A stretch of DNA of 64,000 nt, from assembly GCF_026684035.1 (NCBI RefSeq), contig NZ_CP113361.1:496001-560000 (forward strand), in the 5' to 3' direction. Below are positions 9,943-16,207 of this stretch, one piece after another. Both the position numbers and the translations under genes were made by a program. The stretch is from Methanogenium organophilum. Lineage in GTDB: Archaea; Halobacteriota; Methanomicrobia; Methanomicrobiales; Methanomicrobiaceae. The notes under the pieces are model-generated. The model ran no database searches. It saw only the letters and a list, made by a program, of their open reading frames with translations, and was not told where the DNA came from. Position 1 is the stretch's first letter; every line of letters starts with the position of its first letter.

Positions 9943-10650
9943 TCAGCAATCCGAACCTTCAAACACGCTCTCGCCATACTGGCCCAGGCTGTAGTTCAAA
10001 TCGTTGTACAGCAGGGTCATCGGATTTCGCAGGAACCGGTATGGGGTGCAGTGTTCTGCTGCCTGCGAGTCGGTGATGTCACCATCCGAGTCGCCGTAAT
10101 AGACCGAGACATTCTCTGCGTTGATGGCGGGCGTCTTTGATGTGCCGTTGGTGAAGATCACTTTGGGATTCTCGATGTCAAAGATTGCACCGATGTAATC
10201 TGAGATCCTCTCGTCCGGCGAACTGCGCTTCTTAGTGATGAATACCACCGTGTCACCCCGTTCCCGGTGCATTTCAACAATATCCATTGCCGCATATTTG
10301 GGGATATAAAAGCCCACAAACTCGTTATTAACAGCGCTTATGAACGCAGGGTTGTTTTCGGCATCATCTCCGAATATATTCGTGCCGTTCGGGCCGTCGA
10401 TATTCATCCTTCCATAGTAATAGACCGAATCGGTGTAGAAGGTCGTGCTGTCCAGGTCCAGTCCGGCGGTGATGGGGCCGTCATCTGCCAGACTCTCTGC
10501 AATTTCACTTACACTGATGGTTGTATAGGGTTCCACCGGCGTTGCATCCACGGCGGCAGTATCGGTAGTAGTCGTGCACCCGGCACACAGGATCATACAA
10601 ACGGCCATCCCCAGAATAAGGGAGGCTGTCCGGACACGTATTTTGGACAT
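9943..10650 (-). CDS. lipoprotein of the HAD class B acid phosphatase type
   Basis: The 235-residue product has a lipobox (MILCAGC, Cys25) and would be anchored outside the membrane. The rest follows AphA-type class B phosphatases: the nucleophile motif DLDST (Asp65, Asp67), the PKYAAMDIVEMHRERGDTVV helix, a Thr in VFITKK and the acidic YYGDSDGDITDS loop that holds the metal. It probably removes phosphate from small organic phosphates. The start was set at the ATG that opens the signal peptide; the frame upstream adds eight residues without support. It stands alone, flanked by long gaps. Confidence 0.83.
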   Translation of the reverse strand: MSKIRVRTASLILGMAVCMILCAGCTTTTDTAAVDATPVEPYTTISVSEIAESLADDGPITAGLDLDSTTFYTDSVYYYGRMNIDGPNGTNIFGDDAENNPAFISAVNNEFVGFYIPKYAAMDIVEMHRERGDTVVFITKKRSSPDERISDYIGAIFDIENPKVIFTNGTSKTPAINAENVSVYYGDSDGDITDSQAAEHCTPYRFLRNPMTLLYNDLNYSLGQYGESVFEGSDC

Positions 10651-11066
10651 ACTGATACATTCGGCAGGATACAAATTATGGTTTTGATTTCATTCGTCTG
10701 GGTATTGCATTGCTGATGATGCTGCAGGACGAAGATTGTTACGGTATATTCCCCCGACAAAAATGCAGATTCAGAATGGGTATGGCCCGGCAAAACGGCA
10801 GGCACAGTGCGCATAAACAGATAAATATATCATTCGACATATGAATTATTTGGATGCCTGCATACTTCCCATGTACAATCCACCTTCCACAAATTCACCA
10901 GATCACGAATGCATCACTGAATTTAATGCATCATCAGGTGTTTAATCAAACACTACTCCGTCTTTCAGAACTTTTCTTCACCATCGGGCGGGTGAAATGA
11001 TTCACTCCCGGATACCGGGAGGCTTGAATGCATAAGTACTGTGTGCACAGGTATCAGGGACATCAT
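10651..11066. other. divergent intergenic region
   Basis: This gap lies between two divergent lipoprotein genes and should hold both promoters. An AT-rich patch near 10817-10850 (ATAAATATATCATTCG) can serve as a TATA element for the plus-strand gene or its neighbour. I see no RNA gene, repeat or reading frame with coding character. Confidence 0.4.
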
Positions 11067-13338: not shown

Positions 13339-13442
13339 AACAGTATGGCTGATATGATTATAGCCGTGCGAAGACGGGCATTTCTGCATGATTACAGCCA
13401 TGCAAAAATACGGTAGCTGTACGGCTGCAGGGCAATTCGGAT

Positions 13443-13670
13443 GTGGCACCGCTGTCCGTTGAAACGGGTTTAAAGCATGTATACATCCACGATGCCCTGA
13501 AGGAGAAGATATTCCGGCGGGAATATTTCAAGCACACGGGCCTTGGCCGCTTCCTTTCCCGTGAAATTCTCTCGATTACCGGTCTCTCGATTCAGGAGAT
13601 GGGAGTGGCAGGGCAGGGGGCCCGGTTCGTCATTCATATCCCGAAGGGACTGTTCCGGTTTGCGGAGTAG
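13443..13670 (+). pseudogene. C-terminal relic of a sensor histidine kinase (HATPase end)
   Basis: The 75 codons read as the last part of a histidine kinase ATPase domain of the type common in Methanomicrobiales: KEKIFRREYFKHTGLGRFLSREIL corresponds to the F-box and G2 region (normally GLGLFL), followed by ITGLSIQEMGVAGQGARFVI and a final IPKG. The G1 box, H box and all sensor domains are missing, and the third Gly-Leu pair has become GR. With only this tail it cannot bind ATP or signal. It is a deletion relic of a larger gene. Nothing upstream back to the M23 gene resembles the lost part. Confidence 0.8.
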
Positions 13671-13789: not shown

Positions 13790-14770
13790 ATGGTGTGCTA
13801 TCGGATAATCTACCACATGGGCAATACCGGTACCAATACGATACAGCCAAAGCTGCTGCTGCGTATCGAAGAAAAAAGGGAGCTCTCTTTTTCTATGCCT
13901 CCTCTTCCGGCAGATGAGAGCCAAAAACTGCATGAAGAGCAAAAGCTGTTGCATACGTATTATTCCAATGCGATAGCGGGAAATACCCTCACGCTTGCAG
14001 AGACGCGTGCCGTTGTAACCGAAGGCGAGACGATCGAAGAAAAATCCCTTCAGGAGCATCGTGACGCGATGAATACGGCAACCGCCTTTGAACGGATGGA
14101 GACACTCGCAAACGAGGGGGCAGCGATAGACCATGCCACAGTTCAGGCGATTCATGCGGTTGTTACCGGCGCAGAACCGGATGATGCCGGGAAATACCGG
14201 AGGACGAATATCAGGGCCGCCTCCGCCGCAAAGGCCCATCCCAACTGGACGGAGGTAATGAAGCTCATGAACCAGCTCCTGGTAACGGTGCGAAACAGCC
14301 GCCTGCACCCGATAGAAACTGCGGCCTATTTCTATCACGGGTTTGGTGATATTCATCCGTTCACCGAGGGGAATGGCAGGGTCGGACGCCTCTGTACCTG
14401 CCTGTATTTAATGGAACGAACGTATCCCCCGGTCGTACTAAAAAAAGAGAGCCGGAAACGCTATACCCAGCTCATAAAAGCAGCGGATGCCGGAGACATC
14501 GGCCCGTTCTCCGATTACCTCGCAAAAGCTGTGGATGAAAGCCTGACCCTCTCGCTTGCGGCATATGGCGGGGAGGATGAGCTGATGCCGGTAGAGGATA
14601 TCGCGGAGAATCTTGGAGAGGATTCACCATATTCAGCGTATTCACCGGAATATTTGCGTCACCGGGCAGAACAGGGGGTGCTTGATGCGGTTCAGATGGA
14701 ACATACATGGTATACCTCACGCCGGGCGCTGGACAGATACCTCGCAGGATATGAAAACGACGAGCGGTGA
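13790..14770 (+). CDS. Fic-family protein (probable AMP-transferase)
   Basis: This 326-residue protein carries the complete Fic motif HPFTEGNGRVGR near residue 189, including the catalytic His and the anion-binding GNGR. Such enzymes attach AMP or related groups to target proteins. The N-terminal inhibitory helix normally reads S-x-x-x-E-G/N; here it reads SNAIAGN, with Ala (GCG at 13976-13978) in place of the autoinhibitory Glu. A C-terminal winged-helix-like segment (near 270-320) resembles the DNA-binding end of some Fic proteins. There is no cognate antitoxin gene beside it. The ATG at 13817 is another possible start. Confidence 0.92.
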   Translation: MVCYRIIYHMGNTGTNTIQPKLLLRIEEKRELSFSMPPLPADESQKLHEEQKLLHTYYSNAIAGNTLTLAETRAVVTEGETIEEKSLQEHRDAMNTATAFERMETLANEGAAIDHATVQAIHAVVTGAEPDDAGKYRRTNIRAASAAKAHPNWTEVMKLMNQLLVTVRNSRLHPIETAAYFYHGFGDIHPFTEGNGRVGRLCTCLYLMERTYPPVVLKKESRKRYTQLIKAADAGDIGPFSDYLAKAVDESLTLSLAAYGGEDELMPVEDIAENLGEDSPYSAYSPEYLRHRAEQGVLDAVQMEHTWYTSRRALDRYLAGYENDER

Positions 14771-15129: not shown

Positions 15130-15342
15130 ATGAAGACATTCACAGCGGTACTCTACGCGGAAGATGATATGTACATCGCAGAATGCCCGGAGGTGGGTAC
15201 CGTCAGCCAGGGAGATACTGTGGAAGAGGCCGTAGCAAACCTCAGGGAAGCCACTGAGTTGTACCTTGCTGAATTCCCACTTGCAGAACAAAGACGCCCC
15301 ATCATAACAACATTCGAGGTTAATGAGTGTGTCAGGGCGTAA
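15130..15342 (+). CDS. hicB: HicB-family antitoxin
   Basis: The 70-residue protein has the HicB fold: an N-terminal strand pair (FTAVLYAEDDMYIAECPEVG), the TVEEAVANLREATELYL helix and a short C-terminal part. It should bind and silence the HicA ribonuclease encoded next, and probably represses the pair's promoter. It overlaps hicA by 20 bases. Of three hicAB modules in the window, this is the only one in which both genes are open. Confidence 0.9.
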   Translation: MKTFTAVLYAEDDMYIAECPEVGTVSQGDTVEEAVANLREATELYLAEFPLAEQRRPIITTFEVNECVRA

Positions 15343-15559
15343 ACCTGTCTCAGGCGAGACAGTGATAAAAATACTCTCAAAAAAATACGGTTTCGCAGTA
15401 AGCGGTCAATCGGGTAGCCATGTGCGCCTCTCAAAACAGACACCCGAAGGAAAGGTCGGGACAGTTGTCCCACTGCACAAAGAGATCAAGGTAGGCACCC
15501 TTCGTGGAATCCTGAAACTGGCAAAAATCGATCCGGACGATTTCATCCGACATATCTGA
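15323..15559 (+). CDS. hicA: HicA-family mRNA interferase toxin
   Basis: This 78-residue toxin has the dsRBD-like HicA fold: KPVSGETVIKILSKKYGF, then GSHVRL with the catalytic His, VPLHKEIKVGTLRGILK and a C-terminal helix. It would cut mRNA when HicB is lost. The order is antitoxin first, toxin second. Its 3' half is overlapped on the other strand by the disrupted tail of a HepT-like frame, which is clearly a shadow there. Confidence 0.9.
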   Translation: MSVSGRKPVSGETVIKILSKKYGFAVSGQSGSHVRLSKQTPEGKVGTVVPLHKEIKVGTLRGILKLAKIDPDDFIRHI

Positions 15560-15921
15560 TTGTCTGTTCCTGATAGTAACACATGGGAAAAAATTCTGCC
15601 GCCAATCCCCCTAGCAGCCTGAATGCCTGTCATTTTTCTTTTTATTCTGAGGGGGATCTCAGTATGCACTCCAAAATATGCATGGATGAGAATATCCCGC
15701 AGTCCTGCAATCTTTCTCCATGATATATCCGGATGCTCTTCTTTTCGGGACACCGGAATGAGTTTGACGGCCTCCCCGATGACCATGAGGTTTCGTATCA
15801 CTGCATCCTGCACAAGGTCATTCTCACTGAAATCTTCAAAGGACATCCCGTGTGTATACCGCTGTATTCTTTCTGCAGCCTCCGGAATATCCTGGAGATA
15901 GAGATTATAATCCCGGGGCAT
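15406..15921 (-). CDS. hepT: HepT-like (DUF86/HEPN) toxin with disrupted C-terminus
   Basis: The first 90 or so residues are a good HEPN domain: YNLYLQDIPEAAERIQRYTHG, RNLMVIGEAVKLIP and the nuclease motif LRDILIHAYFG (R-x4-H-x-Y). After GVHTEI the frame leaves the family and runs antisense through hicA, so the last 80 residues are not real. In another frame the coding sense continues briefly and stops at 15611. A frameshift or small deletion near 15640 is therefore likely. It overlaps the nucleotidyltransferase gene upstream by 17 bases, giving an MntA-HepT pair whose toxin lacks its last helix. Confidence 0.7.
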   Translation of the reverse strand: MPRDYNLYLQDIPEAAERIQRYTHGMSFEDFSENDLVQDAVIRNLMVIGEAVKLIPVSRKEEHPDISWRKIAGLRDILIHAYFGVHTEIPLRIKRKMTGIQAARGIGGRIFSHVLLSGTDNQICRMKSSGSIFASFRIPRRVPTLISLCSGTTVPTFPSGVCFERRTWLPD

Positions 15922-16207
15922 ATCTGACGCTCCGGAGGATATATGGTCTGAGTGCGGGTTTTATCGTATCACGGTCGACAAGGTCTACTTTTCTTCTGAA
16001 GAGATCTTCAAGGAAGAATTTAAGGTCCATATATGTGTCAAAAGAACGCCCTCCTTCAACAAACTCGACCAGAATATCAATATCGCTCTCTTCACGCGCT
16101 TCATCACGAACAAAGGAGCCAAACAGCCCCAAACGCCTGACCCCAAGGTCTCTGATCCGCTTCTCGTTTCCCGCGAGTTCTCCAAGGATATCCTCTGCTG
16201 TGAGCAT
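15905..16207 (-). CDS. mntA: MNT-type nucleotidyltransferase antitoxin
   Basis: This 100-residue minimal nucleotidyltransferase has GLFGSFVRDEAREESDIDILVEF, the GS-x10-DxD motif, and a third Asp near VDLVD. Members of the MntA family inactivate HepT ribonucleases by adding AMP to a Tyr near the active site. The HepT-like gene follows with a 17-base overlap. The length is normal and no residue is missing, so the antitoxin is probably functional although its partner is damaged. Confidence 0.9.
   Translation of the reverse strand: MLTAEDILGELAGNEKRIRDLGVRRLGLFGSFVRDEAREESDIDILVEFVEGGRSFDTYMDLKFFLEDLFRRKVDLVDRDTIKPALRPYILRSVRYAPGL

Follow-up and report, generated by a model that had tools for sequence, protein, structure and literature searches.

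In Fic proteins, an inhibitory glutamate competes with the γ-phosphate of ATP for the second arginine of the catalytic motif, and Glu-to-Gly mutants representing classes I-III are activated (PMC3667792). The same residue is needed for deAMPylation by EfFIC (PMC6408439) and FICD (PMC6826200), and it is taken both to define how class I-III Fic proteins are controlled and to mark enzymes that deAMPylate as well as AMPylate. Its removal relieved activity in vitro in the engineered proteins SoFic E73G, NmFic E186G and VbhT/VbhA E24G (PMC3667792). Published work also covers class I proteins without the motif, a Campylobacter Fic2 with a degenerate core and, as discussed in PMC10628234, the motif-insensitive class II protein CdFic of Clostridium difficile, which auto-AMPylates outside the usual inhibitory-helix control.

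Some class II Fic proteins are also fused to DNA-binding domains. CccR of Yersinia pseudotuberculosis, a Fic domain followed by a helix-turn-helix (HTH), acts as an autorepressor via inverted repeats set far apart, AGATAATCAT-N26-ATGATAATCT (PMC9755527). For CbFic2 of Coxiella burnetii, which carries a C-terminal HTH, PMC10628234 describes a DNA-induced dimer and indicates that DNA binding can switch the enzyme. Our literature search, incomplete in its coverage, returned no report of a natural class II lineage in which the glutamate is fixed as alanine, and none of an operator, or of AMP transfer tied to autoregulation, for an archaeal Fic.

Here we describe a fic gene found in a 64,000-nucleotide stretch of DNA (the window) whose product, among solved structures, most closely matches human FICD (HYPE), the class II bifunctional AMPylase/deAMPylase, in both sequence and fold. 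Unlike FICD, the window Fic lacks a TPR domain, has an extra C-terminal winged helix and naturally carries alanine at the Glu234 position, resembling engineered E234G. It shares the order of Fic domain and HTH with CccR, and the element at its promoter is likewise a widely spaced inverted repeat, but CccR keeps the inhibitory Glu and differs in HTH type and operator sequence, and the archaeal element, whose operator role is predicted from sequence, overlaps the start codon. CbFic2 also resembles it in class and C-terminal HTH and is a structural match (8cil); in contrast, CbFic2 retains Glu66 and has a DeoR-type HTH, no operator being described for it in the accessible part of PMC10628234. CdFic likewise keeps its glutamate, E35, which is replaced in S31A/E35A mutant structures. 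Finally, the SoFic, NmFic and VbhA mutants were made in the laboratory, whereas the loss in the window clade is natural and common to several species. In its mode of action, the window Fic would come closest to an E234G form of FICD joined to an autoregulator of the CccR kind.

The fic gene and its inhibitory motif

The host of the window is a Methanogenium whose genome forms one contig of 2.65 Mb, with M. marinum and Methanogenium sp. MK-MG as its nearest named relatives. The product of the long open reading frame matched the Pfam Fic family PF02661 (8.6e-18, 65.4 bits, cut-off 24). An internal ATG is probably the real start, because the nine preceding codons cover a conserved DNA element and several homologues have stops there; as judged from the alignments, conservation upstream of this ATG is that of DNA and not of protein. 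Residues are numbered from it, so that Ala54 is Ala63 of the long frame. The features of the locus are collected in the table.

Features of the fic locus, in window positions
Feature	Position	Strand	Basis or remark
HAD acid-phosphatase-like lipoprotein gene	9943..10674	-	Syntenic marker by which fic orthologues are recognized in five Methanogenium genomes
fic open reading frame	13790..14770	+	326 aa as long ORF
Operator-like element TATCGG-N22-CCGGTA across the start codon	13799..13832	.	One mismatch to consensus TATCGG-N22-CCGATA
fic gene from the likely start, ATG 13817	13817..14770	+	317 aa; homologues have stops upstream of the aligned Met
Inhibitory helix, predicted residues 32-53, stopping just ahead of Ala54	13910..13975	+	AlphaFold2 model, FICD alignment
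Ala54 codon GCG, replacing the inhibitory Glu (FICD Glu234)	13976..13978	+	Alignment to family and FICD
E74-E75-K76, loop ahead of the FICD Lys256/Leu258 "dimer relay"	14036..14044	+	Gly-Gly in most of the family
Probable flap (target-docking) region, residues 131-143, with changes I134A, G136S, P141H and D143N	14207..14245	+	Flap inferred by alignment
Fic catalytic motif HPFTEGNGRVGR (His180 to Arg191)	14354..14389	+	Sequence, alignment
Glu184 codon GAG; this acidic motif residue binds Mg	14366..14368	+	Alignment
C-terminal excisionase/MerR-type winged helix-turn-helix domain, residues 256-317	14582..14767	+	Foldseek, PF12728

By architecture, the product belongs to class II and resembles FICD. 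Its AlphaFold2 model (mean pLDDT 88.8, pTM 0.88) has the Fic fold, and FICD was the nearest structure (6i7g and others, prob 1.0, rmsd ~2 Å over ~243 columns) as well as the closest solved-structure protein by sequence (7e-33). The sequence alignment, along which FICD residue numbers were counted, is ungapped through the inhibitory motif and places Ala54 on Glu234. The AMP-transferase signature HxFx[D/E]GNGRxxR is present and the catalytic motif is intact, as the first-pass annotation had stated, and its reading of the inhibitory motif as SNAIAGN with a GCG codon was confirmed. Thus, the class II motif [S/T]xxxE[G/N] is broken, the protein reading SNAIAG, and the glutamate used for deAMPylation by FICD-like bifunctional enzymes is alanine. 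The annotation would have been undone by a true inhibitory Glu lying elsewhere; none was found near Ala54 in the window protein, and the ungapped alignment to FICD and to the family rules out such a residue elsewhere in it.

The annotation had also asked whether alanine is fixed among homologues. Of the 33 aligned family members outside the Methanogenium clade, 32 have Glu here and one has Gly, and the more distant Fic proteins of the same order (L012-L034) all have Glu. Alanine is common to three Methanogenium species, encoded by GCG in the window, GCA in M. marinum and GCC in Methanogenium MK-MG; a fourth species, G131, has Asp (GAC). As a codon-pattern control, NAIEGN-type peptides were matched 44 times in 43 of the 393 genomes of the phylum, and NAIAGN was genuine only in the window and in genome G055. 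Two further NAIAGN matches (L088 and L089) were antisense chance matches outside Fic genes. The single Gly-bearing gene (L074, genome G440) is an independent natural case, SNAIGGN, with an intact catalytic motif and an imperfect operator.

The surroundings of fic contain several other genes of interest. Upstream, positions 13401-13667 (+) hold an open stretch that looks like the ATPase portion found at the C-terminus of sensor histidine kinases (GLGRFLSREILSITGLSIQEMG...); it has no Pfam match and is probably a relic. Directly 3' of fic lie overlapping HicB-like and HicA genes (15130-15342 and 15323-15559, +), HicB being absent beside fic in the relatives examined, and these adjoin a HepT-like/nucleotidyltransferase (MNT) pair (15406-15921 and 15905-16207, -) whose HepT-like frame seems to extend C-terminally, antisense through hicA. 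Fic, HicAB and HepT/MNT thus make up three clustered toxin-like modules in the window.

The Methanogenium clade, its selection and its substitutions

The fic genes of the window, M. marinum, MK-MG and G131 form one clade (support 100/98), within which G131 branches (97/94), and all four adjoin the same HAD acid-phosphatase-like lipoprotein gene; they are therefore orthologues. A fifth gene at the HAD-marked locus, in G079, keeps the Glu, has lost the catalytic Arg188 (to Gln) and is truncated at its C-terminus. The G131 gene is frameshifted at a seven-G run in a metagenome-type assembly, which may be an assembly error. Of the five orthologues, G131 and G079 thus have copies that look disabled. 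Elsewhere in Methanogenium there is an intact Glu-type paralogue (L047, on G079 contig C4). None is present in the window genome, where the only other Fic, L001, was considered as a Glu-type partner and set aside because it carries a DeoR HTH and belongs to a distant subfamily. In G055, a Glu-type paralogue (L050/L051, contigs C96 and C34) is broken near residue 205 with unrelated sequence beyond; its C-terminal portion turns up close to a contig end elsewhere in the assembly, which suggests that the gene was split by an inserted element.

Codon comparisons indicate that the clade remains under constraint. The window and M. marinum genes (74% protein identity, dN 0.16, dS 0.57) differ at 0.32 of third and 0.13 of second codon positions, and both frames are intact, whereas neutral drift over half the distance between them would be expected to bring ~7 stops per lineage, with a probability of 0.0014 of no stop. 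Omega within the clade is 0.27-0.40, about twice that of the neighbouring HAD gene (0.08-0.26) and of one Glu-type pair (0.18). Selection on these genes is thus purifying yet relaxed, weaker than on the neighbour, with recent decay visible in single lineages (G131 and G079), and fic is probably not simply dead. His180, Arg188, Arg191 and Ser50 are kept in all four members, as are the remaining signature residues of the Fic motif. These comparisons show that the inhibitory Glu was replaced in this clade while the catalytic residues were kept and purifying selection continued.

The M. marinum gene (L046 7179-8330) has in addition a low-complexity insertion of ~60 residues, Gly/Glu-rich and then Ser-rich, in the linker that leads to the winged helix; all relatives examined lack this insertion. 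Downstream of the gene, the region L046 9840-10300 adjoins a Cas3-like frame, and more than one of its reading frames gives repeats such as VPHRRGDEP/SSPQAWG, as is typical of a CRISPR repeat array.

Replacement of the Glu was accompanied by many other changes. Among positions nearly invariant in Glu-type relatives, 27 of 100 are changed in the window protein, 30 of 100 in M. marinum, 25 of 99 in G131 and 19 of 68 in MK-MG, many of them shared, compared with eight in the Glu-type Methanogenium gene L047. These include changes in the flap, N195C, Y217T and the replacement of Gly74-Gly75 by Glu-Glu before the dimer-relay residues. The relay equivalents K76 and L78 are present in the window protein and partly lost in its relatives (L78P in M. 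marinum, K76T in G131). The family as a whole keeps the equivalents of FICD Lys256, Leu258, Glu263, His363 and Arg374, the Glu263 position being Asp in the window protein.

At residue 184, the metal ligand, the 33 family members outside the clade uniformly have Asp, the three Ala proteins have Glu, and G131, with its Asp54, has Asp; the only pairs seen at residues 54 and 184 are Glu/Asp, Gly/Asp, Asp/Asp and Ala/Glu. Because G131 lies inside the clade, the two residues of the Ala/Glu pair must either have arisen jointly on two occasions or have arisen jointly and later reverted jointly. This covariation, drawn from few sequences, is suggestive, and the equivalents of the two residues form a metal switch in EfFIC (PMC6408439). 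With ~27-30% of family-invariant positions changed, the flap and a metal ligand among them, activity may be altered or weak.

The start-codon element and the C-terminal domain

The C-terminal domain was recognized by fold, Foldseek returning the excisionase RdfS (prob 0.99) and also TraN and BldC. A Pfam scan of whole proteins missed it, PF12728 gave weak matches in 7 of 17 family members (best E 0.0019), and sequence comparison of the domain with solved structures yielded only spurious ankyrin matches.

A 34-bp element, TATCGG-N22-CCGATA, lies at or just before the start codon in all 37 family genes examined; no copy departs from it by more than one mismatch, a match reached by 2 of 6400 shuffled controls; the start regions carrying it (those of the window and L046-L082) span the phylum. 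Its usual form is TATCGG-N16-CCGATACCGATA, and in Methanosarcina relatives the element is often duplicated in tandem, with the second copy spanning the ATG. The 18-base exact form was matched 30 times in 32 whole genomes, 28 of them at fic, where simple arithmetic predicts ~0.003. One of the two exact copies away from fic lies ~240 bp upstream of an ATPase frame and ~11.7 kb from fic (L083 5296-5329, -, in G281), and could mark either a second regulated gene or the relic of a lost fic copy; the other is inside a coding sequence (L084). Since one-mismatch matches are not unusual genome-wide, the case for the window element rests on positional homology and not on rarity. A bacterial σ70 promoter scan of the start region found nothing, the model being unsuited to an archaeon.

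Autorepression by the Fic protein through this element, as described for CccR, is likely across the family. The first-pass annotation had raised the possibility that the Glu-less enzyme is held in check by something else, and the conserved operator-like element over the start codon lends this some support; the element is, on the other side, slightly degraded in exactly the Ala/Asp clade. It is perfect in 29 of 32 Glu-type genes and in one of five Glu-less genes (Fisher p 0.0025, uncorrected for relatedness), with one mismatch in each Ala species. The net charge of the HTH segment, whose median is +3 in the rest of the family, is 0 or -1 in the clade, and Glu replaces Arg285. With these changes, autorepression is possibly weakened in this clade.

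A proposed unbraked Fic and the alternatives

We propose, at a probability of roughly 0.48, that the Fic of this clade is a FICD-like class II AMP-transferase with an excisionase-type DNA-binding domain, which has lost its brake Glu, AMPylates unbraked and has its dose set by autorepression. Without Glu54, nothing would fill the Arg191 site in place of the ATP γ-phosphate, and with Arg191 left free, ATP would bind in the reactive mode. The enzyme would then AMPylate its target free of self-inhibition, and most deAMPylation would be lost. Output would be set mainly by the amount of protein, which the enzyme would limit by docking its C-terminal domain on the operator that spans its start codon. 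The Asp184-to-Glu change that accompanies the loss of Glu54 is probably an adjustment of the metal site. The permanently active enzyme put forward in the first-pass annotation is thus plausible, and its statement that changing this Glu raises activity agrees with the published Glu-to-Gly mutants of classes I-III. A farther-reaching version, in which the lineage dropped the autoinhibitory and deAMPylation Glu, rebuilt the active site around the loss and moved control to transcription via the start-codon operator, seems rather doubtful to us.

The strongest rival to a permanently active enzyme is altered or weakened catalysis, in which target or catalytic power changed first and the Glu brake then became dispensable, leaving a functional protein that is not hyperactive. 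The changes at more than a quarter of family-invariant positions, including I134, G136, P141 and D143 of the flap as well as N195C and Y217T, the joint change of residues 54 and 184 and the raised omega all fit this account, but every residue of the HxFx[D/E]GNGRxxR signature is kept, and Glu at the metal position agrees with that consensus and is what EfFIC uses (E115; PMC6408439); we consider it possible, if somewhat unlikely. Slow decay, with alanine as one of several neutral lesions at a locus losing function in Methanogenium, would account for the lesions in G131 and G079, the imperfect operator of the Ala species and an omega about twice that of the neighbour. It is difficult to reconcile with the unbroken frames of the window and M. 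marinum genes, with a rate of difference at third codon positions over double that at second positions and with a full set of catalytic residues, which makes decay improbable for the clade, while recent loss of function in one lineage is possible.

Inhibition in trans, with the Glu contributed by a separate protein, has precedent in class I systems and in the Fic1-Fic2 pair of Campylobacter fetus (PMC5651007). A scan of the 2 kb flanks of four loci, however, revealed no shared adjacent class I antitoxin or small frame with the [S/T]xxxE[G/N] motif, neighbours past the HAD gene mostly differ between loci and the sole other Fic of the genome is of the distant subfamily, so that such control appears very improbable. 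A sequencing error or misaligned motif might be suspected from GCG being one base from GAG; three genomes with three synonymous alanine codons and ungapped motif and FICD alignments already refute it, leaving a negligible chance.

Under the proposed reading, a selected class II lineage without the Glu, with Glu-bearing paralogues in the same genus, would offer a direct evolutionary test of living with an unbraked Fic. The combination of a family-wide start-codon operator with a fused DNA-binding domain further suggests that, throughout this archaeal group, AMP transfer is linked to regulation of the fic gene itself.
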